Of a stretch of 64,000 nucleotides of DNA, positions 3,635 to 63,674 are shown piece after piece; position 1 is the stretch's first letter; each line of letters opens with the position of its first letter. Origin of the DNA: Blastocystis sp. Blastoise. Its lineage: Eukaryota > Sar > Bigyra > Opalinata > Blastocystidae. Location of the stretch: assembly GCA_039096225.1 (NCBI GenBank), contig JBBPEB010000002.1, positions 496,001-560,000 on the forward strand, in the 5' to 3' direction. Under the pieces are notes generated by a model, which saw only the letters and a list, made by a program, of their open reading frames with translations, did not search any database and was not told where the DNA came from. The translations under genes were made by a program, and so were the position numbers.

Positions 3635-4225
3635 TTATGTAGGTATGATGGTACCTAAACTAGTTAAATATAATAATGCATAATAGAAACATCCATTAGA
3701 GTTTGAAGCAGTACTTTGGAATTGAATAGGGTTGTATTGAATATTATGTGTCTTAATAAATTGTGGAGAAAATTCTGGAGAATTCCCAAGACTGGAATAG
3801 AATTTCATATGTTCTGGACTTTCATAGATAACAGCTTCAAAATGACCGAAATTAGGGTCATCTTCAGATTGATGAAATAACATATTAAAGTTAGATTTTA
3901 TATTATCAATATTATGTTCAAAATCATTTAAATTATCCCAATATTTCCATGAACCTTTACATTGTGTATTCAGATTTTTCATTGTAGAATCTGCTATATC
4001 ACATGCAACAGGGTCACATGGATTATTTAAATATCCATATTTATATATTTTTGAAATTAAGTTTCTATTAATTATACCAGATAATTGAGCCAATGATTTA
4101 GCTATACTATCCAGAGGTTTAGGCTGACTAGATAATTGTTTATCAGAATAAATTTTTGTATTACAATTTAATTTATCTTGAATAATATCTTCATCAGGGC
4201 TCACTTTTAAACCTCTGGTTGGTAG
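3635..4225 (-). CDS. Adenain-like cysteine protease in the -1 frame (element 1)
   Basis: Predicted virion maturation protease related to adenovirus adenain. The pattern visible is G-H-F-E-A-V-I-Y (catalytic His), a conserved Y-S-S-L-G, then N-P-I-Q (oxyanion Gln) and N-G-C-F-Y-Y-A-L-L-Y-L (catalytic Cys). These are identical or near-identical in the element 2 copy. The frame has no ATG before a Met far inside the conserved domain. It is open from the slippery site at 4225-4231 and lies -1 to the upstream precursor gene. Expression as a precursor-protease fusion by -1 frameshifting is therefore inferred; the coordinates begin at the first -1 codon after the slip. Confidence 0.7.
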   Translation of the reverse strand, partial: LPTRGLKVSPDEDIIQDKLNCNTKIYSDKQLSSQPKPLDSIAKSLAQLSGIINRNLISKIYKYGYLNNPCDPVACDIADSTMKNLNTQCKGSWKYWDNLNDFEHNIDNIKSNFNMLFHQSEDDPNFGHFEAVIYESPEHMKFYSSLGNSPEFSPQFIKTHNIQYNPIQFQSTASNSNGCFYYALLYLTSLGTIIPT

Positions 4226-5325
4226 TTTTTTTGTAATCCAGCTCCTTCACCACAACCATTTTGTTGACATTGTCGTTTAGCAGCTTTACATTTTTGCATA
4301 TATTCATAAAAGGCACGACCACATAATTTTCTTGGTTTTTTCAATCCAGAAGCATTATTAGGTTGCATTGCTTCTGCTAATGCTCTTTTCTTTGCTTCTA
4401 TTTCTTGTTCTTGATAAACATTATCTACATTATTATCTAATTTATTATTTTCATTGGCTTTTCTCCAAAATTCAGGTGTGAATATTTTGCCAATTGCACG
4501 TGGAATTGCTGCAATATTATTTCCTAAATTCGTGACACCATCTTTTATTGCATTTGGATTAGTTGCTAATCCTTCAAATGCTTTTGAAGCCGCACCAATA
4601 CCAGCCAACATTGTAAGGAATCCACCACCTTCTTTCCAAAATTTTCCACCACGACGTACAGTACATCCGTTACCACTTGAATCACCTGAAAAATTAATAT
4701 AAGAACACAATTGTCTTTTTGAGGGTCTTTTAATACCACATCCAACTTTATTTAACCCTTTACCACCTAAATTCATGGTACTTGCTATACTTCTTATAAT
4801 TGAAGGTGGAATTAGCATTCCAGCACGAATTCTATGTTTTGACCATTTCTTATAATCTTTCATAGCTTCTTGAGAATAGCCAGCTGCTTTTAATACACCT
4901 TGACCAATTGAATTATATAATTTTGACATTTCTGCTTTATTAAAAGCTAATCCATTTCCATTTTTTGGTTCTAAAGCATCTGATTCTGAAATTACTTTTT
5001 TATTTGTAATTCCACGTCCATTTCTTTGAATACCTATTCTTGTAACTGGATTAGCAACAACCAATGAACCACCAGAATCACCATTATTATCACCAAACAT
5101 TTTATCTCGATTAACATAATTATCAACATTACCATTATTGACTTTTTGTGTTTTTAATTGTCTTGTCTTTGCAACACTATTTTCAGGTATTGCTACCATT
5201 AATGGATTATGCCTTTCAGCATTATTTAATGGTTGTGTAATATAATTTCTATTTTCTTTTCCATGTCCTAAATGAATAATACCTTTATCACCTGGACTTG
5301 GATATTTTAATATAGTTTGTTCCAT
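4207..5325 (-). CDS. Gly-rich virion precursor protein, element 1 (372 aa)
   Basis: Homolog of 42384-44111 in element 2. The start at 5325 is preferred over the upstream in-frame start because it gives the shared N-terminus (M-x-x-x-I-L-x-x-P-S-P-G, then G-K-E-x-R-x-Y-x-T-Q-P-L) and avoids the neighbouring methyltransferase. Several G-x-G-[I/L] sites occur (GRGI, GNGL, GAGL), as does a Gly-rich R-R-G-G-x-F-W segment followed by a hydrophobic stretch, reminiscent of adenain-processed core/minor capsid precursors such as adenovirus pVI. It ends at the slippery heptamer that should feed ribosomes into the protease frame. The precursor role is inferred from motifs and context. Confidence 0.6.
   Translation of the reverse strand: MEQTILKYPSPGDKGIIHLGHGKENRNYITQPLNNAERHNPLMVAIPENSVAKTRQLKTQKVNNGNVDNYVNRDKMFGDNNGDSGGSLVVANPVTRIGIQRNGRGITNKKVISESDALEPKNGNGLAFNKAEMSKLYNSIGQGVLKAAGYSQEAMKDYKKWSKHRIRAGMLIPPSIIRSIASTMNLGGKGLNKVGCGIKRPSKRQLCSYINFSGDSSGNGCTVRRGGKFWKEGGGFLTMLAGIGAASKAFEGLATNPNAIKDGVTNLGNNIAAIPRAIGKIFTPEFWRKANENNKLDNNVDNVYQEQEIEAKKRALAEAMQPNNASGLKKPRKLCGRAFYEYMQKCKAAKRQCQQNGCGEGAGLQKNYQPEV
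4225..4231 (-). promoter_or_regulatory. Candidate -1 frameshift slippery site A AAA AAC
   Basis: On the minus strand the upstream gene reads CAA AAA AAC, giving the canonical X XXY YYZ heptamer A-AAA-AAC 15 bases before its TAA stop (4207-4209). The -1 frame runs open into the protease domain. A small stem AACC/GGTT with a 3-nt loop begins 4 nt downstream; it is weak and may not matter. Element 2 has A-AAA-AAG at the equivalent place. Confidence 0.65.
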
Positions 5326-14121: not shown

Positions 14122-14182
14122 TTCTTAAAGAACATAAATATTTTTTTTTAATTCATCAAAATTATTTCAAAAAATAATAATA

Positions 14183-15904: not shown

Positions 15905-15957
15905 TAATTTTGAGTTTAAATATTGTATTAAGTATAAAGAATTATTATATCAATTAT

Positions 15958-15969
15958 TGTGTTTTGTTT
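15958..15969 (+). terminator. Gene-end motif TTGTGTTTTGTT
   Basis: Begins 54 bp after the stop of the 15536 gene and ends 18 bp before the ATPase ATG, in the + orientation. It is a member of the T-rich motif family. Confidence 0.4.
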
Positions 15970-15987
15970 ATCAAATAAAATTATTTT

Positions 15988-17037
15988 ATGCCAAAAGAAA
16001 ACAACCAATTAAAATCTAAAAATAAATCATTAGGAGCATTATCATTTAAATTTGATGAAACTGGTGTAGAGACTTATGAATCTAAATTTATTATGATTAT
16101 TGCAAAAACAATGTCTGGAAAATCATTTTTAACCGTGAATTTGTTATGTTGTATGGATTTAGATAATAAATATAGTCAAGTAACATTATTTTGCCCTGAT
16201 GCTTCTAATAAAAATTAATGTTATGCTGGATTACGAGATATTTTGAAACATGCTGATATAAAATTTCAATGGTATGATAGTGAAGATGAAAAATTTAAAA
16301 AGATACGTAATGTAAATGATTTAGTTACAGTTTATAATATTCCACAACACAATTTTATTGTATTAGATGATATATATCCATTAACAATGTATACTAAAGA
16401 ATTAATAATGTCTATATTATCACGTGGAAGACATTATAAACAAAATATGATATGTTGCTTACAAAGTCATTTAAAAATTACAATTCAGTCTATTATTAAT
16501 CAAGTTAGTCATTTATTTGTGAATAGCCAATTACTTAAAGTGAATTTAGATTTTGTTACAGATAAATTAGATTTACCAGTGAATAACCTAAATGAAATTA
16601 TGAATGATACACAATTATTAGAAGACCCTCATCAATTTTATATGTACGCACAAGGTAGTTATGAATTAATACCATGGAAAAATCCTGAATAGAAATCAAA
16701 AGAGGAATTATATAGAATTGTAAAAAAAAGAAAATGGACTGAAGCAGATGAAAAAAAGGAAAAGGAAAAAGAAAAAGAATATAGAAACAATTCTTTATCA
16801 GCAATTTCGAATAAAAAAACTTTAGAAAATATTGAGTCAAAAAAATTGAAAAAATTATTTAATATTGAAGATGATTTTACACCACCAAATATAGAAGAAG
16901 AAAATGAAAATATTCATGGGGATGATGTAATGAGTTTAATCAATAATGAAATAAGAAATCAACGTCAATTAAGCATATATAATCCCTTTAATGAAGGTCG
17001 TCAATTTCTTAATTTTCCTTTAAATAATGAATTTTAA
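15988..17037 (+). pseudogene. A32/FtsK-like packaging ATPase with two in-frame stops
   Basis: Genome-packaging ATPase homologous to the intact 345-aa gene 58688-59725. It keeps the Walker A I-A-K-T-M-S-G-K-S-F-L-T, the Walker B N-F-I-V-L-D-D-I-Y-P and the C-L-Q-S-H sensor region. The single frame is cut by TAA at 16216-16218 (where element 2 has Glu) and TAG at 16690-16692; everything else stays in frame to 17037. Two point nonsense mutations explain this better than recoding, because the aligned residues differ and other genes use UAA and UAG as normal stops. Element 1 could not package by itself with this copy. Confidence 0.85.
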
Positions 17038-18195: not shown

Positions 18196-21100
18196 ATGGA
18201 AAGTAATTACATGACAAATACAAAAACAATGACTGGAATTAATAGACTTGCTATTGGTAAAGAGTATTCACCATATAAAGGAAAATCATATGTTCATGAT
18301 ACAAATTATCATAAAGGAGTCCATTGGAATTCTAAAGCTAATTCTTATTTTACAAAACAACAAGAAATTGATGATTCTATTAATCAATCATTTGGTGCTG
18401 GTATCGCTGGATTTATAAGAAATAGTCCAAATAAATCAGTTTTTAAAAGTTTACAACATCCTCATCACAATAATTATGGTGGTGGAATTAATCATCATGG
18501 TTGTTTATCCAATGAAATGGCAAAAAGACTAATTATTACTAATGATTATATTATTCCAAAATTAATTGAACAAAATCATTCCTGTGGAGCTGGTTTAAAG
18601 AAAATCATTAATAAAGAAGCAATTATTGATAATTTTGATTTTAGTGACAAATATGGAGGTAATATACATGTCAAAAAAGGTGGAGCATGGAAAATATTAA
18701 GTACCATTAATAAATATTTACCATTTAAAAGAAATAATGTTTCAAAGAATATTCCAAAAGGTGACGATGATGAAGATATGCCCCCTAGAAGTCATGGATC
18801 AGTAGCTGCTGATTGGAGAGCTTATACTGAAAGGAAACTGAAACATTTAAAAGAAATGGGTAAAATTGCCTTAGTAGCAGGAAAAAAAGATTTAGGCATG
18901 ATAAAAGACACATTTCTTCATCCTGAACCAGATACTACAATTAAAGACAGATTTGACAGTATAAAGCAAAATAGTAGTTTGGTGAAAAAATTTAAAAAAC
19001 TCTACAAGCAAGGCGAAACTAGATATAATACATATCTTTTCAGTAATCCTAAAAATGAAAGTCCCCTCATTGATAGCACATCAACTGATTTTTTTAGATA
19101 TGTTCAAGCAGGTATCGCTGCAAAACAAGAAATAAAGCAAAAAATTCATCATATAAAAAATCAATTATTTAATCATGGAGATAAAAAAAAACCTTATGTT
19201 AAACCCAAAATTGGTGAAACATATCGTGATGCAAATAAAAGCAAAAATGGAGACTTAATCATCAATCCGCATTGTATCGACCTCTGAAGAAATTAGAAAA
19301 GAAATTATTAAGGATAATAATGCTAGTGTGAATGATAGTATTGAAGATTTAGCAAGAAAAGAACAACGCATTCATTTATCTAGAAAAGTGTTACATCCTG
19401 AATATGAATATGACACTCAAGCGTATAAAGATAGAATAGACGATAATAATACTGAAAGAGAAAAAAGAATTATGTTAAGATTAATGAAAGCAAAACAGCA
19501 TTTAACATATAAATATTATGATGAAGATGACCCTTTTAAGATTCCTGAATCAGAATGGTATAAAAAGGAAAATAGCTTATTACCCGAATGGTCAAAAGAT
19601 ATAATAAATAATTTTGAACTTAATCATTATGAAAAAGTTGGAAATGATGCAATTAATGATGATTTAACAAATGAATTAATTTTAAATAGTGAGCAACATC
19701 AAAATGATATTAATGAAACTTATGCAGAAATTTTTGGATTACCTAAAGATTTTATGTATGGTATATATCCCCATGGTTCTGAAGACGAAAAAAATAAATC
19801 AAATAATAATAAATGGATTGAGCCAGAACAACCTTATGATAAAACAAAATATCATCCTTATAATAATTTTGATTATTCAAATGCATTTAATATCGATGAT
19901 CCTGAATATTCAGAGATTTATAAAAAATATACTTATAAACCAAATGAAATGCAAGATAATAATGATGAATGCATTAATAACAATAATAATTATCATGAAA
20001 TTAATCCTGATAGAAATGATTCTTCTGATGAATATGAAAATAATGATAATGATAATGCAAATAATTCTATGGAAATAGAATCAAATGATCAAAATAATAA
20101 TATTGACATTGATAACTCAAATCAGAGTAATGAAAGCATGGATAATAATGTTTCTCAACAAAATAATGACAATATTGATATTGATAACCAACCATTCCAT
20201 GAAGAAAATAATATTCCAAATTTAAATGAAATGGTTGATAACAATGAAAATCATAAAGAAAATGATACAAATGTACAAATCAATAATAAAAATAATGTTC
20301 CAGTTACAGAAGATAGATTTATACTTGTTGACAATAATCAATTGAATTCGATGAATTTAAATGCAAATGATGCGGATATCAGTCAATCAAATCAAAAAGA
20401 AAATGATGTTCATGACGATGTTCCAATTAAAAAAGAAATTGAAATTGAAAAAAATGTTCCAGTACAAAAAGAAATGGAAATAGAAAATAATATTCCAGTG
20501 CAAAAAGAAATGGAAATACAAGAAGATGAACGTTCTATAGAATCACCAATAATTGAAAAATTAATTCCAAATATTGATAACATAATTAGAGAATCAAATA
20601 ATAATAGTTTTCAGAGTTTTCAGCCAGTAAATAATATTTCAAATGAAATAAATATAAAATCAGAAAATATGTCACTTTTAGACCAAAATATAAATTCACA
20701 ACAAAATAGTAGTGATAATAATATGACTTCATCTGAAAGTGATGATAACATGTTTTCTTTATCTTCTTTTCAAACTGCTGATGATATGTCATCTTCTGAT
20801 GCCTCTATGAAAAGTTTATTTTCTGAATCGGAGAATCTAAATGATATGGAAATAGAAACTCAACCAAATATTACAGAAAGTCAAATAAATTCAAATATTC
20901 AAAATAATATTAATTATTCCATAAATAATAATGTTCCTAATTATAATGATAACACATTCAAAATTGATATTACAACCAATGAATTTAATACATCGGATAT
21001 AAATATTCCAAAAATTAATGAACAATCCAATAATATAATTGCATCTCAAAACTTTATTAATAACTCTTTATTACCCGAAAATTCAAATCAACAAAATGAT

Positions 21101-22273
21101 TATAATGTTCAATTAACATCAAACAATAATTTAAATAAAGATTCAGATAATAGTGATTCTGTCGCTGATATTGAAACTGATGACAACAACAAAATATTCA
21201 ATATATATCCATCATCGTCAGATGAAGAATCTGATTTACATTATGATGACATGCATAATTTAGTATTAGATACAGAAGACAAACAACGAGGATACTATAA
21301 TTACATGGTAAATAAATTAAATAGTTTCCAAGGAACATCATATAAAACACTTCCAGAAAATGCAAATATTAATTATCCACTATTAAAGACTTATATGTCT
21401 GAGTTGCAAACTAATTATAATCAACACTTATCTGATATAAAGAATCTAAAAAAATATAAACATCATTTAACTGACCAAAATGAAATACAAGATACTAATG
21501 TATATATTGATGATATTAAAACAATGATTACAAATTTAGCAGATGATTTTATTGATACATTCCAGAATTTTGATGATTCTAATTCAAATAACCAATCACA
21601 AAGTACTGTTTCATCTAATAATAATAGTATGATGCAAAATAATGTAAAACTAGAAGAACCAGCAAACTTAGCAAATGAAATTAATTTACCTCTAAATAAA
21701 AATGGAGACACAATTAATTCTGTTGAAGAATTATTACAAAATGATTTTCAAACATTTTTTAATGAAATGGAAAGTATTCATAATCAAACTTTTAATAATA
21801 TGGAAGCAAACACAGCCTCGATACAAAATCCTCTAAATTCACAAAATCATATTAATGACTCTTTTGAAACAAACATGATAAATAATAGTGTTTCTCCAGA
21901 TACAAATCAACCTATTCCTATTGAACGGCAAGAAGCAAATCTATCTTCTGATTCTTCTGAAATAGATACTTTTATGGGAAAACTAGAAAAAACTATAGGG
22001 AAAAAATCCAAACCAAAAAATACTAAATTCGCTGAAGAAATGATGAATAATTTAGATGAATCATTTAAAAAATATAATGAAAATACTTTACTTAATCATA
22101 AAATTCTTCGTCCATCATTAAATGATAAAGAACAAGTAAAACGAGTAGTAGTAAATTCTTCAGATAATTCAGATTCTGTTGGTGAATTCCATAAATATGG
22201 AAAAAAATCTAAAAAAGATATGGAGAATCAAGTACAAAAGAAACCAATCATAAATAAAAAAAAGCAAAAATGA
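18196..22273 (+). pseudogene. Virion precursor fused to a long Asn-rich region, frameshifted
   Basis: The first part (18196-19287, 363 aa) matches the 62184 gene family: G-x-x-x-x-A-[IT]-G-[KH]-E-Y-x-x-Y near the N-terminus, F-G-A-G-I and C-G-A-G-L sites, and a G-G-A-W-K segment. The second part (981 codons) has no ATG until far inside, and its frame is open from 19259, overlapping the end of the first frame, so a +1 shift between 19259 and 19287 probably split one gene. The second part is Asn/Asp/Glu/Ser-rich and disordered, with three tandem 12-residue repeats at 20417-20524 (P-[VI]-x-K-E-[IM]-E-I). It ends basic. It has no element 2 counterpart of this length. Confidence 0.55.
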
Positions 22274-34077: not shown

Positions 34078-37000
34078 TTACAATACTCCATTAAATACAC
34101 AATTTTTAGTATGCCATTCATTACTATTTCTGATTAATTGACCTTGATTAATATTATCATTCTTTATAAACATTTTTATACCATGAAAAGAACGTACTCT
34201 ACTTAAAGCAACATATAATTGACCATGACTAAATACAGGTCTTTCTAAATAAATACCTACATTTTGAAATGTTTGACCTTGTGATTTATTAATAGTCATA
34301 GCAAAAGCTAATCTGACAGGAAATTGTTTTCTACTTAACTTACATGGTAAATCACTATCATCTACTATAAATTTAATTCTTGGAATCAATACTATATCTT
34401 GTCCTTCTAACATATTATCAGTTCTTACTAATAATTGACTTCTTATTACATTTGGTTTTGTATCTAATACTACTAATCTCGTTCCATTACATAATCCTCT
34501 CTTTATATCTAAATTTCTTAATAACATAATAACTGAACCTCTTTTCAATTCTAAATCATGAGGTGGACATCCTTGAGGAATTAAACTATTTAAATATTCT
34601 GTACTATAAGCATCTCTTTCATCTATATCTTCTACTTCTTCTGCTAATTCATCATGACTATAATAATGATGAGAACTTGATCTTATCATATTTTGAATTC
34701 TTTCATTAATTAAAAATGCTTGTTCATTTGTTGCACATAATATACAATTTGAAGCTAATTTCTGTCTATATATATCTGTATTTGAATCATTAATAAATTC
34801 ATGAAATATCTCTTCACCTATATTCTCATCACAAATACATTCTCTTGGAATATGTACTTTATCTTTTGATAATAATCTTAATTCATTATTACATCTATCA
34901 CCATTTCCTATCTTCAATAAGAATTCTTTAAATTCTATTTCATTTGCATTTGCTCTCATATTTTCTGTTAATTGAAATTGATTAAATTCATTCCAAATAT
35001 CTAAATATTTAATACATAAAGGAACTATATCAGCTTCTTTTCCATGAGCTACTACTGGTAAACATTGTCTAAAATCTCCACCTAATACTATTGTTTTACC
35101 TGCAAATGGAATATCTATCTCATCATTATATAAGAATCTTAATAATCGATCAACTACTTTTAAAGCATATTTAGAAGCCATAGGAGCTTCATCCCATATT
35201 ATTATTTTACATTTCTTAATTTGTTCTGCTCTTGGAGATCCTCTTGAAATAGAAGAAGAAGAAGATTCATTTAATTCAAAAGGTAATCCAAATTGTGAAT
35301 GAGATGTTTTTCCTCCACATAATAAAGTAGCTGCAATACCTGTCCATGCAACTGCTATCACATCATCTATATTATTTCTTATTGATTTAATTATTGTATT
35401 ATAAAGAAATGTTTTTCCAGTTCCTCCTGGTCCATCTATAAAAAACATATTATTTCTATGAGGTTCATTATTATTCACTGATTCCATTATTGATTCATAT
35501 ACTCTTCTTTGTCCTTCATTCAATAAACTTATATTTCTTTCGGCTATTCTATGATCTTCTTCAAAATTAATTCCTTCAGATTCATAATCTATCATATTAG
35601 TATTATTATCAAATTGTGGTAAATTAGTACTTTGATATCCTCCATTATGTTTATTTGTATCTATGACACTTCTTATATGATTTAATGCTCTAGGTATACA
35701 ATATTCTTCTATTATTCTATTCACTTCATTATCTTCTGAATCTAATACATATGCATCTTGTCTATCTATACTTATATATTCATTTATATATTGATGAAAG
35801 AAATCATCTATCATATCATTCCTATAAGTATTCCAAATAGATAATGGATCAGTAATAGGATAATAAAAACAAAGTAAACCAAATAATTGTCTTAATTGCC
35901 AAGGAGTAGCATCTATTACTTCATTTGCAAGAATATCATAATATTCTGTATCATCTACTAATAATCCTCTTGCTATACAGGATTCTCTATATGTATTATA
36001 TATTTGGCCTTCATAACATTTTAAATCATCAAAACTTAATGGACGACTTACATGTAATAAAAGTATTCTTAAACAAAATAAATTATCATTTGTAGGATCC
36101 ATATAAGGAAGTCTTCCTATTACTTTATTATTTCTTCTTCTATGATTCCATTTCTTTAATTTTGAATCATATGTATAATATTTAGGAAATTCTATATAAG
36201 TTAAAATAGATGGTTCATCCATTGTTCCTCTTGATTCTTCATTTATATATAAATCATTCATTTTAAAATATGCTGTTAACATTGTATCTTGATTCATTAT
36301 TCTATCTAAAGCTCTTTCTTCATCTCCTTCCACATAATATACAGTTCTATCATTCTCATCATGAATATCTAAAGTAATTACACTCACATTACAATATTTT
36401 ATTGGAAATCCATATATTCTCCACATAGCTTCAGGAGCTGATAAATATCTTCCTTTTAAATAAGATTTCATTTCATTTGGTATTTCTATTTCATTTCTAT
36501 TTGAATTATTTGGATTATTACTATTAGCATTATTATTACTATTATCTTCTCTTTCTATTTCTGCATTAATAGAATCATGTCCTTTAAAAGCATATTTAAA
36601 TATATATTTAGGACTTCTTACTGAAGAACATACTTCTACATTAATATGACAACCTATTCTAAATGATAAATATGGATTATATGGAACTACCCATCTATTA
36701 TCTAAAGTATTATTTACATTTGATTGTCTACCTATTACATATACTCTACCATTATCTCTTCTTCTATAATTTGGATATCCATCTTCATTTATTGTAGTTT
36801 CATTTCTATAATCTTTTGGAAATTTCTTTGAACAATATTGTTGACCATTTATTTCTTTCATACATTGAGATGTTCTTGTATGAGGACCATGCATATTCAT
36901 TGAAGTAATAATTTCATATAATCTTGGATTCTTTATAGGATCAGGAATTTCTGCACATATATAGGAATCTATATCTTCAAGAGTTCTTAATTTATATTCA

Positions 37001-39580
37001 TTCTCTAAAGTAATTAAAATATGTGCATGAGGCATTCCTCTCTTCTGACATTCTATAGAATAACATATACATTTTACTTCTCCAAATACTTTAAAATTTG
37101 TTATCAAATGAGTTAAGATTTTCAATTTTATATAAAATACTCTATCTACTATATCAGGTCTCATCCAAGGTTGTTGACCTTCTTCTAATGATTCTAAGAT
37201 TTCTGGTCAATTTGGATTGCAAGTCATGGTTATAAATAAATCTGGTTTACCATAAGCTCTTACAATAGCCATTGTTTCTAAATAGGAATTCTTCATATAT
37301 CGAGGACCACCTACAAAACTTGATGGAATAATAACTGCTTTTCCAATTCTACTTCTTATATATTCATCACTAAATCCATTTCGTATCATCTCATTCACTG
37401 TATCTCTAAATACAGAATATTTCTCTGATCTTAATTTTGTTTGATTATTTGCTATAAATAATAATCTTGAATATTCTATTTTTGTAGCTGCATCAACCAT
37501 AAATTGTAATAATAATTTTTCAAATAATAATAAATAATTCTTATGATTAGGATGTCTTGTATATAATAAATAAGAATAGAATTCTCTTAATGAAATAGTA
37601 GGTATAGTATAAAATTCATTTCCTAAAATATCTAATGGAAATCCTCTTTCTGATCTATTTCTAAAAATTGGAATAATTCTCATCGATTTTGAATCATCTC
37701 CATTACTATCATTATTCTCTGTATGATTACTATTTATTCTATAATTATTTCTATTATTTAATTCATTTTCTACTTCTTCTATTATTTCATTCTCATTATT
37801 ATTATTATTAGTTGAATTTGAAATATTTCTATTATTATTATTATTATTTTGACGATTTAAATGTAATTCAGAATTACGTATAATATTAGAAGTAGATTCT
37901 AAACTCCATAATGGTAATCCATAAGGAAACATTAATGGATATATTAATGGATCACAAAATGGATTATTATAACTAAGATTTGTCATTTGTTGTTCTGATA
38001 TATTTTCATTATTATTTTCATTTTCATTTTCATTATTATTTTCATTATTATCATCATTTCTTCTTCTTCTTCTTGGATAACACGAAAGATTAATATTTGG
38101 TAAACCTTCATCATTTTGTTTTGGTATAATCATAGCTATTTCATTTGTTGTAGTAGGAACATTAAATCTTCTTCTATCATCATAATTACTTATTTTAAAT
38201 TGTAATTTTAAATTTACTTGTGAATAAGTAGTATTATTTATTCTTCTTGATTCTGTTACTTGTTCATGTAATGTTTTAAAAGATTCATATATTTTATTAT
38301 TATTTCTTATCATAGAATCAATACTTAATAATAAATCAGAAGATAATTCTGAAAACATACTATTTCCATTTCGAATATGAAGAGCTTCTTCTTCATCATA
38401 AATATATATTTGATTAAAAGAAGGAGGAGAATTATCAGAAGGATATAAATCACTCATAGAATGATATACATTACCATGAACTCTATAAAAATATGGTCCT
38501 GGACCATTCATTCTTGTTACTACATTAGAACATGACATAGAAGCAAAAGCAAAAGCATTATTATATCTTCTTATCTCATTTCTAAATAATTTATTATTTG
38601 GTGTCTGACTCTTTAATTGATTTAATAATTCATTTGGAAGATTTATAGGTGATTCTACTTTCACTTTCCCATTATTACAACACATTGTATAATTTGAATT
38701 TCTTGTAATGATATAATCATGATCTCCTTCATAATACTCAAAATCTATTCTTGAATTATTAATTAAGTTAATATATTTTTTATATGTAGAATATTTTGTA
38801 ATCTTATAATTTGTTTTTTCTGCTTCAAAATGAAGAGCTTCACAATGAATACAAACATGATTCATTTTACCTATATTATAATATTCATATATATTATTTC
38901 TATGAATATCTCTTTCATTCTCTTCTATTATTTGTTCTCCATTTCCTATACATAATATAATAATAGTTCTATTATCATAAAGAATTATAATAATATAATG
39001 ATATAATATTAAACATACTTAATTTAATACATGCTTCACAGTTTTCAAATCTTATTACAATAGGAATATTGCCATTATTTTCTTCATTATTATTTTCATT
39101 TTGATTATCTATATCTATATCGTTATTATTTGTAGAGTTTATTGGTTCTATTTGCAAAATAGGATTATTAGTAGTATTAGAAAGAATAATAGGTGTGAAA
39201 TCACTATCTGTACTTGAATCATTATCTGAAGTAGAAGAATCAAAATTAATTCTTCTTCTATGATTATTTATTTTTGCTGATAATAAATTATTATTATTAG
39301 GATTTTGAATAGGAGATATTTGATAATAATTTAATATATCTAATATCGATGATCTTGGCAGAGGAGGAATAATAGAATTATTATTATTATTATGAGAAGA
39401 AGAAGAAGAATTAATAATTCTTGAATCAAGAGGAGATAATCTAGGAGGTGTAATAATTCTTCCGTTCTTCGAACTGCAGAAGGGGGTATGCAAACCCCGC
39501 ATAGAGTCTGCGCGACGCGCGCAGCCATAAGCGGGGAAGTCATCCCCCCTTTTTGTTCTCGACGGAAGAATTAATAACAT
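34078..39580 (-). pseudogene. Helitron Rep/Pif1-helicase gene with one internal TGA
   Basis: Exon 1 is 39580-39019, then a 73-bp intron (39018-38946, GTATGT...TATAG), then exon 2 to 34078; phases agree. Domain order is a C-x-x-C zinc motif with A-L-H-F-E-A-E, a Helitron-like N region, HUH relaxase motif M-P-H-A-H-I-L-I near 37,030, K-Y-I-F-K-Y-A-F-K-G-H-D with the Rep tyrosines near 36,590, Pif1 helicase Walker A G-P-G-G-T-G-K-T near 35,430, and a C-terminal S-H-G-Q-L-Y-V-A-L-S-R-V. A TGA at 37204-37206 replaces the Trp of the conserved C-N-P-N-W-P-E-I. Otherwise open over about 1,800 codons, so the inactivation looks recent. Confidence 0.85.
39454..39573. repeat. GC-rich inverted-repeat insert in the Helitron N-terminal exon
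   Basis: Bounded by AATTCTTCCGT and its complement ACGGAAGAATT. The interior is GC-rich (CGCGACGCGCGCAG) and contrasts sharply with the flanking poly-Asn/Ser coding DNA. It supplies most of the first 40 codons of the predicted exon 1 (R-T-K-R-G-D-D-F-P-A-Y-G-C-A-R-R), so the real Helitron start may lie downstream. Probably a small MITE or captured sequence. Confidence 0.5.
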
Positions 39581-41817: not shown

Positions 41818-42426
41818 TTAACAAGGCATAAGATTTCCATTAGAAAGTAAATAAAGTAAAGAATAATAAAAGCAACCATTTGCATTACTTGTAGTTTTTT
41901 GGTGTTGAATAGGATTATATTGAATATTATGATTTTGAATAAATGATTTTGAAAAAGTAGGTTCATTTCCTAATGATGAATAGTGTTCTATGTTTTTATT
42001 ACCATTATAAATAACAGCTTCAAAATGACCATTATAAGGATCACTAGGACTTCCATGAAAGATCATATTAAATTTAGTTTGATCTTGATCTATATTTTGT
42101 TCAAAATCATCATAACTATTATAATAATTATAAGATTGAGAATTCGTTTTATTTAATTGTTTCATAACATTTTCAGCACGATCACAAGCAACAGAAGAGG
42201 TAGGTTTATTTAAATAAGCATAATTATATAATTGAGATATTAAAGAATTTGGTATATTACAATATTGAGATAGAGTTTGTTTGAAATTATCAGGGGATCT
42301 AGGAGTAACATGACGAGTTTTATCAGATATAATAGGATTATCGCAATTCATTGAATTTTGAATTAATTTCTCATCTTTACTCTTTACCAGATCCCCTCCC
42401 CTGAGTTTTTTGATAACATATATTTC
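41818..42426 (-). CDS. Adenain-like cysteine protease in the -1 frame (element 2)
   Basis: Ortholog of the element 1 protease. It has G-H-F-E-A-V-I-Y (His), Y-S-S-L-G, N-P-I-Q-H-Q (Gln) and N-G-C-F-Y-Y-S-L-L-Y-L (Cys). The frame opens just after a TGA at 42450 and has no ATG until codon 30; element 1 lacks even that Met, so a separate start is unlikely. It lies -1 to the precursor gene, entered at slippery A-AAA-AAG (42426-42432). Just after the junction the translation reads K-L-R-G-G-D, matching the adenain cleavage consensus [MIL]-x-G-G-x, so the protease could free itself. Intact and probably active. Confidence 0.75.
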   Translation of the reverse strand, partial: EIYVIKKLRGGDLVKSKDEKLIQNSMNCDNPIISDKTRHVTPRSPDNFKQTLSQYCNIPNSLISQLYNYAYLNKPTSSVACDRAENVMKQLNKTNSQSYNYYNSYDDFEQNIDQDQTKFNMIFHGSPSDPYNGHFEAVIYNGNKNIEHYSSLGNEPTFSKSFIQNHNIQYNPIQHQKTTSNANGCFYYSLLYLLSNGNLMPC

Positions 42427-44111
42427 TTTTTTTTCCAAAACAATTCGTCACCTGCATTTAATGTTTCATTATTATCTCTTTTCTGTTTTATAATTTGTAA
42501 TTGTTTTAAATCAGCCTCTTGTATTTTACGTTTTTTTCGTGCCACTCCTGCAGGTATTATAAAATCTGTATAAAATGATACTAATGGATTCAAATCACCA
42601 CCTCTTTTCTTTTTAGCTTCTTTTCCTCTTCTCATTCGTTCTAAGAATTCTGCTTTACTTAATTTAACTCGACCACCATAACCTCTACGTTTAGCTCTTC
42701 TTGCAGCTATTCGTTTATCCCTTTCATCTTCTTTCCATTTTCTATCGACTTTCTCTTTATCATTTTGAGGGAAACCATAAATCTTATAATAATAACTTTG
42801 TTCATCACGAGACATGGGTTTATAAGGTTGAGGAGGTTGTTGAGTTTGTGGATGTCTTGGTGTATCATTTTGAGGTATATCAAATGTATCAACATTCAAT
42901 TCAGGTTCAATTTCTGGTTGTGGTTGAATGGGTGCTGCTGGAGGAGGTGGTTGACGAACAGGAAGATTCTTTCTAAGTTGTTGTTTCATACTGTGCAAAT
43001 CTCTTAATGGTTGCACTTCTTGATCTAATAATTCTGATTGTCGTTCAACTGTATCGTAACCATCATTAATTGTTCCCATTACTATACCATTACCTATTTG
43101 CTTTTTCATTTCATTTAATGCTTGTTGACGTTTTAATTTTTCCATTTCAAATTCCATATCATTTAATTCACTTGATTGTTGTGCCAAATGTGTATCATAA
43201 TAAGCTTTTCTACCTTTAGCAAAAGAATCCATACCTTTATCAACTACACCTAATAGAGCTGGTGCATAATCCATTAATCCGCTCCAGAATCCACCACCTC
43301 TTTTTACTCTTAATATACCATCACCACTTTGAGCTGAATCTAAATCTATATATTTTGGTATAATAGAGGGTCTTAACATTCTTCTTAATTTTGGATTATT
43401 AATCATTTTCTTATTTTTAATTGCATTCATAATTGCTGAAGCAACAGATATAGGAATCTTTCCACCACGTTTTATTTTATGTTCATAGAATCTTTTGAAT
43501 TCATCATCAAGATCATGATGACCATCACCAACATATTGAGCTAAAATAGCTAATGCATCACGAGCTTTTCTATTAGCTTTTTTATCTACAATAGCATCTC
43601 TTATATCTAATACATTTCGTTGATACATATCTTTTACTTTATTTTTAATTGCATCACCAATACCAGAACCTTGATTATTCTCTAATTTATTGATTTCTGA
43701 TTTATTTGGAATAATTCCTCTACCAGATTTACGTCTTGGTTTACATGGATTTAATACTTTATATTGACGATCTTCACCATCTATTTTATCTTCTTCTGGA
43801 CCAGCTGCTTTCATTATACCTTTACCTGCTGCTCTAGCACGAATTAAAGCACCATTTCCTTGTGGAACAGCATCTTTACCAAATGTTTTAGAACGATCTA
43901 CATAATCATCTTCTTTACCATCATGTATTTCTTTACTTTCTAAAGTAGACACAGGCATAGATGAATTTGGACCTATTTCATGAAATATTGGATTATATTG
44001 ATCCATTTTATGTAATGGTTGTGTATTATATCGCCTATATTCTTTTCCAGTTGAAATTAAATTCATACCAAAAGTACCAGGACTTGGCATTCCTAATATA
44101 CAACTTTGCAT
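42384..44111 (-). CDS. Gly-rich virion precursor protein, element 2 (575 aa)
   Basis: Ortholog of the 4207 gene, longer. The N-terminus has M-P-S-P-G and G-K-E-Y-R-R-Y-N-T-Q-P-L. G-x-G-[I/L] sites recur (GRGI, GSGI, GDGI, GNGI, GEGI), and R-V-K-R-G-G-G-F-W precedes a hydrophobic patch, like adenovirus-type precursors cut by adenain. The C-terminal third is Pro/Gln-rich, then Arg/Lys-rich (R-R-A-K-R-R), suggesting DNA or core binding. It ends after the slippery heptamer that should produce a fusion with the protease. Intact; the structural role is inferred. Confidence 0.62.
   Translation of the reverse strand: MQSCILGMPSPGTFGMNLISTGKEYRRYNTQPLHKMDQYNPIFHEIGPNSSMPVSTLESKEIHDGKEDDYVDRSKTFGKDAVPQGNGALIRARAAGKGIMKAAGPEEDKIDGEDRQYKVLNPCKPRRKSGRGIIPNKSEINKLENNQGSGIGDAIKNKVKDMYQRNVLDIRDAIVDKKANRKARDALAILAQYVGDGHHDLDDEFKRFYEHKIKRGGKIPISVASAIMNAIKNKKMINNPKLRRMLRPSIIPKYIDLDSAQSGDGILRVKRGGGFWSGLMDYAPALLGVVDKGMDSFAKGRKAYYDTHLAQQSSELNDMEFEMEKLKRQQALNEMKKQIGNGIVMGTINDGYDTVERQSELLDQEVQPLRDLHSMKQQLRKNLPVRQPPPPAAPIQPQPEIEPELNVDTFDIPQNDTPRHPQTQQPPQPYKPMSRDEQSYYYKIYGFPQNDKEKVDRKWKEDERDKRIAARRAKRRGYGGRVKLSKAEFLERMRRGKEAKKKRGGDLNPLVSFYTDFIIPAGVARKKRKIQEADLKQLQIIKQKRDNNETLNAGDELFWKKKKYMLSKNSGEGIW
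42426..42432 (-). promoter_or_regulatory. Candidate -1 frameshift slippery site A AAA AAG
   Basis: Codons TGG AAA AAA AAG of the precursor gene contain the heptamer A-AAA-AAG in the correct phase (the dnaX-type slippery site), 39 bases before its TAA stop (42384-42386). The -1 frame leads straight into the protease. A GC-richer stretch (CTCAGGGGAGGGGATC) begins about 17 nt downstream. Confidence 0.7.
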
Positions 44112-54943: not shown

Positions 54944-56437
54944 ATGAGAATCTTAAGAATTAAAGATAATATTCCTATTCAAAGCAATACTGATATTCTA
55001 TCTAGTCCTTATATCTTTCAATATCATTGGACTAATGTGGATAATACTTATATCAATTTCAATCAATCATATTTGGATCTTACTGTCAAGGCAACTGTCA
55101 CAGATAAAGCTGGACCAGTTTCTGTTTATTTAGATGAAACAGGTACTTCTGCTAGTTTCACCTATGATCAATTATGTCAATATTTCTTGGATCAATTAGT
55201 TCAGAAAGCTAATATTTATTCTATTATTGATACTACTGATGTTGAAATGGTTTATACATTACCTGATGGATCTGATCGTGCTTTAAAATATGAAGAAAAC
55301 TGTACACATGCTTCACGTGGTCGTAAAATGATATTATTAAAAGATATTAGTAAAAATGATTTAGAAAAATCTATGTATGGTGAAGATTTATCTGCAGATA
55401 CTTATGAATTGAATTCTATTCGTTATATACGTGCACATCCAGATGAATCTATTCATATTGCTATTCCTTTATATCTTATTAGTGGTTTAGGTGTTGATGG
55501 AGATTCTTTAATATTAACTAAACATTTCAATATGTTATTTAGAACTAGTACTATTGAATCATTAATTGATAATAAAATGAGTATTTATTTCAAGAATGGT
55601 ACTGCTACCAAAACTACCGAATGGTTACATTTAGATGATGAAAATTGGTTTAGTACATTTAAGATTGAATCAGCTACTATGAATTTAATGACTTATAAAG
55701 ATATTCAGTTCCAATCGAATGAATTATATAAAACTATACCTACATGTATTCAAGTTGATTATCAAAATACAAGATTAACTACTAATCATTTCAATATCAA
55801 TAGAGCTTTACCATTTATACCTGAATATATATTATTTTGGTTTACAAATGGTTATAGTTCAACAACTATTAGTAATATAGCTAGTCCAAATGTATGGCCA
55901 ACATATCAAAGTTGTTTGATTGGTGATGTTCAAATGTTCCCTCAAACTGAATTCCCTACTCAAATGTATTATCATAATCTTACTACAAAAGGTCATGTCT
56001 TCAATAATGCAGAAACTACTAGTTTATCTTGTCCTAATAAGAATTTATATTGTTTATGGGCTGATAATTCAAATCCTGAAACTATTCTTAAATATGATGA
56101 ATGGATTAAACATCCTATTTATATTATTCCAACAAAATCATTAATGAATATCCAATCAGATAGTGGTATTGAATTGAATTTCGATTGTAATGTTGATGTT
56201 CATGATGTTAAATATGAACATATTGATTCATCCACTGTTCCTGATGGACAAACGTGTCAATGGAAAAGTTACGTTGATCCAACAGATAAAAAGACAAAAT
56301 ATCACTGGGAAGCTGATACTGCCTCTTATAAGGTAGCTTCTCATGCTGGTATTTATAAACATACTACTACTGATCTAAGTGATAGTTCTCCTTATACCTT
56401 ACATATGATTGCTGTACGTAGTGTGCGTGATATTTAA
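54944..56437 (+). CDS. Major-capsid-like protein A, element 2 (497 aa)
   Basis: Ortholog of 12595-14121, intact. Shared segments: N-I-P-I-Q-S...D-[IL], F-x-[YF]-H/E-W-T-N-x-D-N-[TK], A-N-I-Y-S-I-I-D-[ST]-T, H-A-S-R-G-R-K-M-I, I-R-x-H-P-D-x-x-I-H-I-A-I-P-L, Q-M-F-P-Q-T-E-F-P-T, and the ending S-P-Y-T-L-H-M-x-[AC]-V-R-S-[AV]-R-D-I. The strong similarity at both ends of a roughly 500-residue beta-rich protein suits a capsid shell protein under structural constraint. The MCP assignment is by context and N-terminal pattern. Confidence 0.62.
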   Translation: MRILRIKDNIPIQSNTDILSSPYIFQYHWTNVDNTYINFNQSYLDLTVKATVTDKAGPVSVYLDETGTSASFTYDQLCQYFLDQLVQKANIYSIIDTTDVEMVYTLPDGSDRALKYEENCTHASRGRKMILLKDISKNDLEKSMYGEDLSADTYELNSIRYIRAHPDESIHIAIPLYLISGLGVDGDSLILTKHFNMLFRTSTIESLIDNKMSIYFKNGTATKTTEWLHLDDENWFSTFKIESATMNLMTYKDIQFQSNELYKTIPTCIQVDYQNTRLTTNHFNINRALPFIPEYILFWFTNGYSSTTISNIASPNVWPTYQSCLIGDVQMFPQTEFPTQMYYHNLTTKGHVFNNAETTSLSCPNKNLYCLWADNSNPETILKYDEWIKHPIYIIPTKSLMNIQSDSGIELNFDCNVDVHDVKYEHIDSSTVPDGQTCQWKSYVDPTDKKTKYHWEADTASYKVASHAGIYKHTTTDLSDSSPYTLHMIAVRSVRDI

Positions 56438-56511
56438 ATTTAATATTTCTTACTTACTATTCTTAACGTTAACTTGTTTAATTAATTCTATTCTATTCTA
56501 TAATACAATCA

Positions 56512-56522
56512 TTTGTTTTGTT
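56512..56522 (+). terminator. Gene-end motif TTTGTTTTGTT
   Basis: Begins 75 bp after the capsid A stop and 93 bp before the next ATG. Confidence 0.42.
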
Positions 56523-56614
56523 ATAAAAATTAAAATTAATTAATAATTATAAAATATTATTATTATTTATTTTTATTTTGTTAAAAAAAATATATATAAA
56601 CAATAATTATTAAC

Positions 56615-57838
56615 ATGGAAGGATTCCCAAGACAATTCTTACCTTCAAAGGCAAATCAAACTATTAAACCTGTACAAATTCCTATTCTAGTTTCTACAAG
56701 TCAAGATTTATTAAATCAACCTTATCCATTTGAATTCTTATATAATTCAGTGGATAGCCCTTATATTGATTTCAGTAATTCATTCTTAGAACTGAATTTC
56801 AATATTACTGGTACTAGAGACAAAAATTCAACATCTTCAGTTGTACAACATTCTAATATCTATAGTATTATTGATAAAATTACTACAGATCTTACGTTTG
56901 TATCTCCTACTGGTCAAGATATTCTTATTAATTATTCTGAATCTTCTATTGAATCCAGTAAAGCAAGAAAATTTGTTACTATTAAAGAATTAAGTAAAGA
57001 TGAAATTGATAAATCTATGTATAGTATGACAGAATGCTTATATAATAACACGTTGAGTAGTATTGCTGGAATGGAAATGAAAGAAAAAGCTCAAGTTATT
57101 ATTCCTTTATCTCTTATTACTGGTCTTGGTACATTTGATTGTGCTATTAAAGTAAAATCTTTGAAGATGCAATTCGTTACAAATTATTTAAAGAATCTAT
57201 TTACCGGTACCACTGTAATCACTGCATTGAAATTTGATCGTGTTTATATTCATCTTCAACAAATCTATGATATTAATTTTGGTAATGATCCACGTGCTTT
57301 GATTAAATGTATTCCTAATAATTGTCAGATATCTGCATTCACTACACCTGTTTATTCACAAGCATCAGTATCAGGTACACCAACTCCACAACAATTCTTA
57401 TCCAATAGAAGTGTTGTTTTCGTACCTGATTATTGTATGTTATACTTCACAAATCAAGAGAAGAGCATGATTCCTATTAAAACTGAATTATTAAAATCAT
57501 GTCAATTCCAAATTGGTGGTCAAAATATCTTACCAAAGACGGATTTCCCTACTACGTATAAAACAACGAATCCATCACAAATTATCCCTAATGCTATGCT
57601 TTATAATACTTGGAGATGTAATAGTCATCCTCAATCTCCTTTAAATGGTGAAAAGTGGTATGAACAACCTATTTATATATTCCCTATTTCAAGTGTTGTT
57701 GATGTCAATACGCGTAGTGGTTGTGAAGTTAATATCTCATTATTAACTGAATATACTGGTGGAACTGTTACTGGTCCTTATACTTTATATGCTCATTTTA
57801 TATTTGTTAAATTTGTTAGAGATGGTGCTACCAATTAA
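56615..57838 (+). CDS. Major-capsid-like protein B, element 2 (407 aa)
   Basis: Ortholog of 14183-15493 and paralog of capsid protein A. Shared with B of element 1: Y-N-S-V-D-S-P-Y-I-D-F-S-N-S, S-K-A-R-K-F-[IV], K-E-L-S-K-D-E-I-D, C-I-P-N-N-C-Q, N-x-R-S-V-x-F-[IV]-P-D-Y-C, G-E-K-W-Y-E-Q-P-[LI]-Y-I-F-P-I-S-S, and a final F-I-F-V-K-F-[IV]-R-[ND]-G-A-x-N. Intact. A 177-bp AT-rich spacer with a gene-end motif separates it from protein A, compared with 61 bp in element 1. Confidence 0.62.
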   Translation: MEGFPRQFLPSKANQTIKPVQIPILVSTSQDLLNQPYPFEFLYNSVDSPYIDFSNSFLELNFNITGTRDKNSTSSVVQHSNIYSIIDKITTDLTFVSPTGQDILINYSESSIESSKARKFVTIKELSKDEIDKSMYSMTECLYNNTLSSIAGMEMKEKAQVIIPLSLITGLGTFDCAIKVKSLKMQFVTNYLKNLFTGTTVITALKFDRVYIHLQQIYDINFGNDPRALIKCIPNNCQISAFTTPVYSQASVSGTPTPQQFLSNRSVVFVPDYCMLYFTNQEKSMIPIKTELLKSCQFQIGGQNILPKTDFPTTYKTTNPSQIIPNAMLYNTWRCNSHPQSPLNGEKWYEQPIYIFPISSVVDVNTRSGCEVNISLLTEYTGGTVTGPYTLYAHFIFVKFVRDGATN

Positions 57839-62183: not shown

Positions 62184-63674
62184 ATGATACAAAGTGCTCG
62201 TTTAAATGTTTCAAATAAAGGATTAGTAGGCGTAAATCATCGTGCTACTGGTCATGAATATCGAAATTATATTGTTCCAGGATCTATTCCTGATGGAGAA
62301 GAACGTTATCCAATTAATTATTCTATTGCTCCAAATTCATTATATGCTGTTAAGAAAATTGAAAGTAATATGGTCAATAGAGCAACATCCAATCCATTTT
62401 TCTCCTATTTATCAGAAACCAGACAAGATATTATACAAAGTTCATTAGAAGAATCGGAAGAAACTGAACCAATAGATGAAGGATCTGGGTTATTACCTGA
62501 TGGTAGAATTCCAAAGAATTTTACAAGAAAACTCATTTATGCTCATGATTATGTTTTACCTTATATGAAACAAAATCATATGTCTGACTATGCTAAATAT
62601 TCAAGATTATTAAATCCTCGTACAATTGATAGTGCAATTGATTTTACTAAAAGAGATCGTGATGGTTATTTATATTCTAGAGGTGGTAATTTATTTTCTA
62701 ATATTTATCACACTGTGAGTGATGTATATAATGTGTCTGATAAATTAACTGGAGGTATTAATAACATCACTCATGGAATAAGTAATGCTGTTGATTATGG
62801 TGCAAATAAATTCAAAGATCTCAAGAATTGGTGGAGAGATATTAATGTTGATCCACAAGAAGGATTCAATGATATTAAAGGAAAACTTGTAAGTGATAGA
62901 AACAATTTATATGATAATTGGAAATTAACTGATGATAATGAAGCTAAGAAAAATAATAAAATATTAGCTGATAACTATTTCAGATTTGCTCATATGTCAG
63001 GTAATGATACTAAAGAACAAAGACTTAACAAAAAGGTATCTTTAGATAATCAAGCAACAACATTTCATAAAAATTATATTCCATATGCAGAAAACCCAAC
63101 ATTTGTTAATAAAGTTGTTAATACTGCAACAAATGTATCAAAACCTGTGTATAATGGCGTTAAGAAAGTTGCAAACTCTATTGTTAGTGGTACAAAGAAC
63201 GCGTTTAATAGTTTTTCTAATTGGTGGTATGGTAAAAATCCAGAGGAAGAAATACCGCAAACAGAAAATCCAATAGAAACAAATAATAATGTTATATCAA
63301 CTCCTTCATCTACCCCTGATACTCTAACACAAGAAAATATTCATAATATTACTATAGAAGATTCAAATCCTCCAAATCTAATTCCTCTTATAAATGATCC
63401 TACTGTTCCTTTACCTGATACTGTTCCTATGTCTCAAGCAATCACGAATAATTTCACTCCAAATATTACACCTGTAGCCCCTATTCCTAATCCAGTAGAA
63501 AATGTCACTCTTGAAAATAATAATAAAAGAAACAAAGAAGAAGATGATGAATTTCAATCATTTGATGAAGATGATGGTGAGGTATTTTATGATCTCGAAG
63601 AAGGTAATGGATTACGTAGAAAAAGACGTATTTCAAAAAATAAAAAATTAAGAAATAAACGTAGAAAACATTAG
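62184..63674 (+). CDS. Gly-site virion precursor protein, element 2 (496 aa)
   Basis: Member of the same family as the 42384 and 18196 products: near the N-terminus G-V-N-H-R-A-T-G-H-E-Y-R-N-Y, then G-S-G-L-L-P-D-G-R-I-P, a Gly-rich S-R-G-G-N-L-F segment, and a late G-N-G-L-R-R-K-R-R-I before a strongly basic tail (K-K-L-R-N-K-R-R-K-H). The middle is helical; a Pro/Thr/Asn-rich linker spans about 350-450. The basic tail behind a putative cleavage site resembles a processed DNA-condensing core peptide. Intact; role inferred. Confidence 0.55.
   Translation: MIQSARLNVSNKGLVGVNHRATGHEYRNYIVPGSIPDGEERYPINYSIAPNSLYAVKKIESNMVNRATSNPFFSYLSETRQDIIQSSLEESEETEPIDEGSGLLPDGRIPKNFTRKLIYAHDYVLPYMKQNHMSDYAKYSRLLNPRTIDSAIDFTKRDRDGYLYSRGGNLFSNIYHTVSDVYNVSDKLTGGINNITHGISNAVDYGANKFKDLKNWWRDINVDPQEGFNDIKGKLVSDRNNLYDNWKLTDDNEAKKNNKILADNYFRFAHMSGNDTKEQRLNKKVSLDNQATTFHKNYIPYAENPTFVNKVVNTATNVSKPVYNGVKKVANSIVSGTKNAFNSFSNWWYGKNPEEEIPQTENPIETNNNVISTPSSTPDTLTQENIHNITIEDSNPPNLIPLINDPTVPLPDTVPMSQAITNNFTPNITPVAPIPNPVENVTLENNNKRNKEEDDEFQSFDEDDGEVFYDLEEGNGLRRKRRISKNKKLRNKRRKH

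Follow-up and report, generated by a model that had tools for sequence, protein, structure and literature searches.

A putative −1 ribosomal frameshift signal between a precursor and a clan CE-type protease in proviral elements of Blastocystis

Background

Retroviral Gag and Gag-Pro are produced by −1 frameshifting, for example at a heptamer of the mouse mammary tumour virus (MMTV) type, A_AAA_AAC. For adenain-type proteases, one sentence in the available part of a 2024 preprint (PMC11071296) mentions potential hexon-adenain ("Hexain") frameshift fusions of adintoviruses, following KnotInFrame predictions. Here we analyse 64,000 nucleotides (nt) of the stramenopile Blastocystis sp. Blastoise (assembly GCA_039096225.1, contig JBBPEB010000002.1, positions 496,001 to 560,000), a stretch that we call the window. 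It contains two related proviral elements, element 1 and element 2, in each of which a protease frame overlaps the end of a precursor gene. Judging from the sequence, the protease is very probably expressed by −1 programmed ribosomal frameshifting at an A_AAA_AAC heptamer, as a C-terminal extension of the precursor.

An initial annotation of this DNA had stated that no such arrangement was known for adenain-type proteases. The potential hexon-adenain fusions qualify this statement, and in the literature covered, which includes few subscription papers, no description of the arrangement other than that sentence was found. Adenovirus, DNA virus and Polinton are each without mention in the accessible portion of PMC5009743, while PMC8537868, as far as its text was available, describes adenain as translated from the L3 mRNA and activated by the pVI peptide, with no mention of frameshifting in that text.

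Results and discussion

Two overlapping frames in three families of copies

The 33.3 Mb genome was searched for copies, and the protease gave 29 matches, one of which (L029, a fragment of 24 residues) was left out, so that the compared set consists of 28 copies in three families: 21 are element-2-like (97-100% identical to the query), four, here family B, are 65-68% identical and three are 51-52% identical. The precursor of element 2, too, is represented in the genome by near copies and by two additional families. The features discussed in this section, all on the minus strand of the window, are the following.

42384..44111, minus strand: precursor open reading frame (ORF) of element 2, 575 amino acids, 0 frame
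41818..42447, minus strand: protease frame of element 2, 209 amino acids from stop to stop, −1 relative to the precursor, with conserved H, N, Q and C
42384..42447, minus strand: overlap of the precursor and protease frames, 64 nt
42349..42351, minus strand: first ATG in the protease frame of element 2; the other families do not share it
4207..5325, minus strand: precursor ORF of element 1
3635..4246, minus strand: protease frame of element 1, −1 relative to its precursor, with a 40-nt overlap and its first ATG after 88 codons

In element 2 the precursor ends at a TAA (42386-42384) and the protease frame opens behind a TGA (42450-42448). The −1 frame is closed before this opening, with 52 stops in 367 codons. 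The initial annotation had described a protease frame that opens after the TGA, overlaps the precursor end in −1 and lacks an ATG in its first 29 codons, and this description is confirmed: the frame runs from 42447 to 41818, with 32 codons ahead of its first ATG (42351-42349). The protease is in −1 relative to the precursor in all 28 copies, and the overlaps of the three families measure 64, 40 and 13 nt. The annotation had also proposed to look for the missing ATG in related elements; there the first ATG is preceded by 55 or 83 codons (family B) or by 88 (element 1), and none is conserved in the protease frame across the families.

Both frames are under purifying selection within families. 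For the protease frame the NG86 w ranges from 0.025 to 0.18 in nine hand-picked within-family pairs and from 0.26 to 0.50 in three between-family pairs; the precursor gives values of 0.10-0.52 for pairs of one family and of 0.69-1.11 across families, where the alignment is poor.

As to the state of the copies themselves, the 21 element-2-like ones (L001-L021) lie on many contigs and the stretch matched to the protease region is stop-free in 20 of them; the presence of so many near-identical copies on many contigs suggests a recent spread. Damaged copies also exist: L020 has a stop in the protease frame and L022 one in the precursor, and L021 and L029 are partial. In the region of element 2 (38800-64000) a search with 20-nt seeds found no terminal inverted repeats of at least 40 nt.

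The slippery heptamer

Two in-phase heptamers lie in the overlap of element 2, only one of which was named in the initial annotation.

42405..42411, minus strand: A_AAA_AAC heptamer in the phase of the precursor, present in 28 of 28 copies; proposed slip site
42426..42432, minus strand: A_AAA_AAG heptamer of the initial annotation, in phase, present in 12 of 28 copies
4225..4231, minus strand: A_AAA_AAC heptamer of element 1
42391..42405, minus strand: codons for L-R-G-G-D in the −1 frame, a possible cleavage site right behind the slip, with LRGG in two of three families

The annotation had placed the slip at A_AAA_AAG and had suggested that conservation of the heptamer be examined in related elements. 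The phase that it gave to this heptamer (42432-42426) is correct, but the second heptamer had been missed, and the comparison favours the latter: A_AAA_AAC is found in phase and at the same place in every copy of the three families, whereas A_AAA_AAG is absent from 16 copies, nine of which belong to the element 2 family itself and read GAAAAG. The heptamer named first is thus probably the wrong slip site. The reading of K-L-R-G-G-D right behind that slip fails as well, since a slip at A_AAA_AAG would give E-I-Y-V-I-K first and only a slip at A_AAA_AAC would lead directly to K-L-R-G-G-D. The adenain consensus [MIL]-x-G-G-x that had been recognized at the junction holds in two families, which have LRGG, and not in element 1, which has LPTRG.

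In the family with the 13-nt overlap, the overlap hardly exceeds the heptamer, which is immediately followed by the stop codon of the precursor. Over 12,166 codon positions of the 31 other ORFs of the window, A_AAA_AAC never occurs in phase, while it occurs 13 times out of phase; AAC accounts for 81 of the 1,192 Asn codons of these ORFs. At the rate obtained by synonymous shuffling of the same ORFs (mean 1.59 in-phase heptamers), the chance of finding the heptamer in an overlap is 0.0026, 0.0004 and 0.0016 for the three overlaps, values that do not simply multiply because the families share ancestry.

A covarying stem downstream of the heptamer

Downstream of the heptamer a stem can form in all three families, with 10-11 bp, at a distance of 6-7 nt and in one register. 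Its 3' arm starts about 95 nt further on, leaving a loop of about 86 nt.

42398..42404, minus strand: spacer between heptamer and stem, 7 nt
42388..42397, minus strand: 5' arm of the stem, element 2
42292..42301, minus strand: 3' arm of the stem, element 2
4208..4218, minus strand: 5' arm of the stem, element 1, CCAGAGGUUUA
4111..4121, minus strand: 3' arm of the stem, element 1, UAAACCUCUGG

When RNAalifold was applied de novo to the 28 copies it returned exactly these ten stem pairs and no others, with two-sided compensatory changes in five of the ten. Simple shuffles of the downstream letters produced an equally good stem in 1 to 13 of 500 cases for the eight representatives. The pairing was then evaluated statistically on 13 distinct sequences, with the structure given in a version of 12 pairs and with a shuffle control that leaves relatedness in. 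Of the stem cells 91.0% pair, against a shuffle mean of 86.1% and with no shuffle out of 500 reaching the observed value; nine cells are changed on both sides where 2.2 are expected (0/500), and five pairs show two-sided change where 1.8 are expected (2/500). Sliding one arm by 1-3 columns lowers the pairing to 23-64%.

A stricter control kept the protein and redrew synonymous codons 20,000 times. All ten pairs arose in 1246 draws for element 2, 596 for L022 of family B and 1007 for element 1, and in 1269 and 552 draws for two further representatives, L008 and L024. Stem pairing comes partly from the encoded peptide, yet each family again shows the excess. In the comparison of element 2 with family B, pair 18/117 differs synonymously on both sides, and pair 15/120 does likewise in L022 and L025.

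The protease and its relatives

The matches listed for the structure model of the protease are cysteine proteases of the clan CE type, and the fold, as modelled, is that of clan CE (adenain/Ulp1 superfamily). Adenain is not among the matches listed, which does not exclude it. Five residues, H141, N161, Q181, Q183 and C192, are invariant in all eight aligned proteins and are candidates for the catalytic set of this clan (His, Asp/Glu/Asn, Gln and Cys); Q and C are separated by 9-11 residues. This spacing is shorter in adenain and Ulp1, where it is 6-7.

The adenain family PF00770 (C5) is not listed for either protease at E up to 1, HMMER filters dropping most matches above about 0.1, and the Pfam retroviral protease does not match them. 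A search of solved-structure sequences with the protease profile gave a single match at chance level (E 1.1). In the viral Foldseek library nothing reached E 0.001 or better for the protease, the best match being a MELD virus protease (E 3.1e-3). The precursors have no significant match in Pfam (VIR_N at E 0.74). No relatives of the protease were found in the collection of prokaryote genome contigs.

The protein search yielded five metagenomic relatives. At the level of protein sequence, P0006 (248 amino acids) runs on from a precursor tail into the protease in one frame, with GG at the junction; its N-terminal residues match the C-terminal part of the precursor with 40% identity over 42 residues (E 2e-6 in a single comparison). 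This continuity in one frame is independent evidence of the fused protein as a natural product.

Counter-evidence and alternative explanations

Several results weigh against frameshifting, and some of them are given below with the explanation that they favour. The absence of in-phase A_AAA_AAC from the other ORFs of the window is not itself significant, because 187 of 1000 synonymous shuffles also have none, and the three families are of common ancestry, hence their copies are not independent. Values of w are mixed for the 52 codons that follow the slip (0.06-1.04 in six pairs, with too few changes to weigh). As for the stem, the encoded protein alone predicts about 7.2 of the ten pairs, and ten-of-ten pairing by synonymous choice has a chance of 0.03-0.06 per family; L023 of family B forms nine of the ten shared pairs with one broken, as do 3236 of 20,000 draws (chance 0.16). 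The number of further pair types is not unusual either, nine against 7.4 in shuffled data, a value reached by 52 of 500. No structure was seen when only 89 nt of element 2 were folded (z +1.56), a piece too short to include the 3' arm, so that the stem was missed. The corresponding short fold of the element 1 piece gave z −2.27, which arises from pairs other than those of the stem, and along the stem the synonymous differences are too few to tell whether there is constraint.

The most serious rival, though an improbable one, is a short intron across the precursor end that would join both frames in a minority of the mRNA. Blastocystis is rich in tiny introns, 30 nt being the most frequent intron length in three other sequenced subtypes according to the part of PMC5608401 available, and two NCBI models, P0013 and P0014, fuse the family B frames via introns. 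Possible donors precede the heptamer: in family B all four copies carry GTAAAC at a distance of 28 nt, in element 1 GTAAAG stands 58 nt away, and 13 of the 21 copies of the element 2 family have the host-type GTATAT at 12 nt. To judge these signals we calibrated on six of the nine chaperonin gene loci of the host genome, in which 26 gaps between exon matches (79-606 nt long) carry a GTATRT/GTAWGT donor at the position expected for it in 21 cases and a WTAG acceptor in 24. By this measure, in the region between 700 nt upstream and 60 nt downstream of the heptamer, host-type donors occur in 13/21, 1/4 and 0/3 copies of the three families, the element 2 copy of the window having none around its overlap. 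None of the 21 copies of the element 2 family has a WTAG acceptor within 150 nt downstream, though there are some in family B and element 1. No host-type donor/acceptor pair is therefore conserved around the overlap. The two fused models use the same GTAAAC donor with differing acceptors (41 and 92 nt), and one of them cuts out conserved protease residues; P0014 continues into a homologue of the next gene, a tail that P0013 shares. They look like forced models, and the precursor models of element 2 (P0008-P0011) stop at the precursor stop, without the protease. Splicing would moreover leave the phase of the heptamer and the stem unexplained.

It should also be noted, as an observation on the annotation of family B, that at L022 and L024 the models P0013 and P0014 merge precursor, protease and next-gene homologue through inconsistent predicted introns.

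Still less probable is independent initiation, with the protease starting at an AUG of its own or at a near-cognate codon that ribosomes reach through leaky scanning, through re-initiation or on a separate transcript. In element 2 the conserved H, N, Q and C are all encoded after the ATG, and the first residue of P0003 and of P0004, just behind the junction position, is M, so that these two might have a start of their own. However, the first ATG of family B and of element 1 falls inside a stretch conserved in the eight aligned proteins, and an own start would not need a conserved heptamer and stem. Transcriptional slippage, by which one A added to the run would bring the protease into the same frame, we consider very unlikely. 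Two families have an A6 run and element 1 an A7 run, and most cellular polymerases slip little on runs as short as these; such slippage needs neither the AAC ending, nor the phase, nor the downstream stem at 6-7 nt, three features that are conserved.

The slip at A_AAA_AAG, in phase in the window copy, is scarcely credible given its patchy distribution beside a heptamer shared by all 28 copies. Equally negligible is a frameshift mutation in a formerly fused gene (a pseudogene or a sequencing error), for which P0006, with both parts in one frame, and the damaged copies could be quoted: the same layout in 28 of 28 copies and the purifying selection on both frames argue against it, and conservation over three families, with the other families' proteases 50-67% identical to that of element 2, speaks against one recent event.

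Proposed mechanism

For frameshifting at A_AAA_AAC, the predicted features of a −1 signal are present, namely an in-phase X_XXY_YYZ heptamer in the overlap, a 10-11 bp stem after 6-7 nt, where a stimulatory structure is expected at about 5-9 nt, and no conserved AUG. The general proposal of the initial annotation, a precursor-protease fusion made by −1 frameshifting, is thus well supported by the conservation of the heptamer and by the covarying downstream stem, and corrected in the heptamer it had named. The stem would slow the ribosome, and the tRNAs in the P and A sites would shift their pairing from AAA-AAC to AAA-AAA. In a minority of cases translation would continue through L-R-G-G-D and the protease frame to a fusion product of about 764 amino acids (569 + 195), while most ribosomes would end at the precursor stop.

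With less certainty, the fusion may supply the particle under assembly with protease at a set, small dose, and the protease may there free itself at the GG site and then mature the particle. We infer packaging and self-release with less confidence because the junction GG motif fails in element 1 and an enrichment of GG dipeptides in the precursors is not supported, the counts lying at or little above expectation (5 vs 3.7 and 5 vs 5.0).

Other genes of the window

Each element carries two adjacent, related genes that resemble major capsid protein (MCP) genes (12595-15493 and 54944-57838; 29% identity within element 2), a label given by reading only; the MCP-like profile has no match among PDB sequences. 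A packaging ATPase and a primase-helicase are present, with matches to phrog_2666 (terminase, E 1.3e-10) and phrog_1156 (primase, 6.3e-9); a match to TIGR01613 (4.6e-8) is below its cut-off. The packaging-ATPase homologue of element 1 (15905-17037) seems to be in pieces, 16219-16692 matching residues 78-234 of the intact ATPase of element 2 with 59% identity.

In element 1, at 18196-22273, the last 29 nt of an ORF with its end at 19287 also belong to a long +1 frame, which is open from 19259 and has its first ATG at 19472. By eye, an N-terminal G-K/H-E-Y/N-like motif is common to the putative virion proteins at 4207-5325, 18196-19287, 42384-44111 and 62184-63674, as if they were one family of structural proteins. 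Between the two elements, at 34078-39018, there are ORFs containing a helicase with a weak RecD-type match, which look Helitron-like.

Comparison with known systems

The signal looks complete, with heptamer, spacer and covarying stem, recurs in three families and would control a maturation protease. On balance we lean slightly towards a broader interpretation: that an integrating double-stranded DNA (dsDNA) virus lineage evolved a system in the style of Gag/Gag-Pro independently of retroviruses, in which a covarying −1 signal sets the dose of a precursor-tethered adenain-type protease, being its only source, and that frame-hidden proteases may be overlooked in other polinton-like viruses, namely those reported to have none. 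If true, this would be a convergent answer to a shared viral problem, the delivery of a small, fixed protease dose into the particle. Gene models miss or mis-splice this protease gene, hence proteases may hide in −1 frames elsewhere. In dinoflagellate polinton-like viruses a protease was reported as absent or unrecognizable (PMC12721341, 2025, seen in part).

The potential Hexain fusions of adintoviruses, as described in the available text of PMC11071296, resemble the present case in that a virion protein and an adenain-type protease may be joined by a −1 frameshift. They differ in that the partner is the hexon and the viruses are those of animals, while here a different precursor is involved and the site is found in 28 copies, together with a covarying stem.

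With polinton-like viruses and virophages the elements share a packaging-ATPase-like protein, a P4-type primase-helicase, a predicted cysteine protease and two MCP-like paralogues, although the protease search of the viral contig collection gave no relative. Adenovirus adenain and the Maverick proteases are similar in being clan CE type proteases in dsDNA viruses of broadly this kind, whereas pS273R of African swine fever virus (PDB 6ljb) differs in being encoded by its own gene.

The likeness to retroviral Gag-Pro lies in the upstream precursor of putative structural type, the −1 protease without a conserved AUG, the X_XXY_YYZ heptamer, the short spacer and the downstream RNA structure. What differs is that we are dealing with a dsDNA provirus of a protist, with a cysteine protease modelled as clan CE rather than an aspartic protease, and with a loop of about 86 nt. 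The Blastocystis system works like retroviral Gag/Gag-Pro but is no member of it, the protease being of another class and the virus of another kind.

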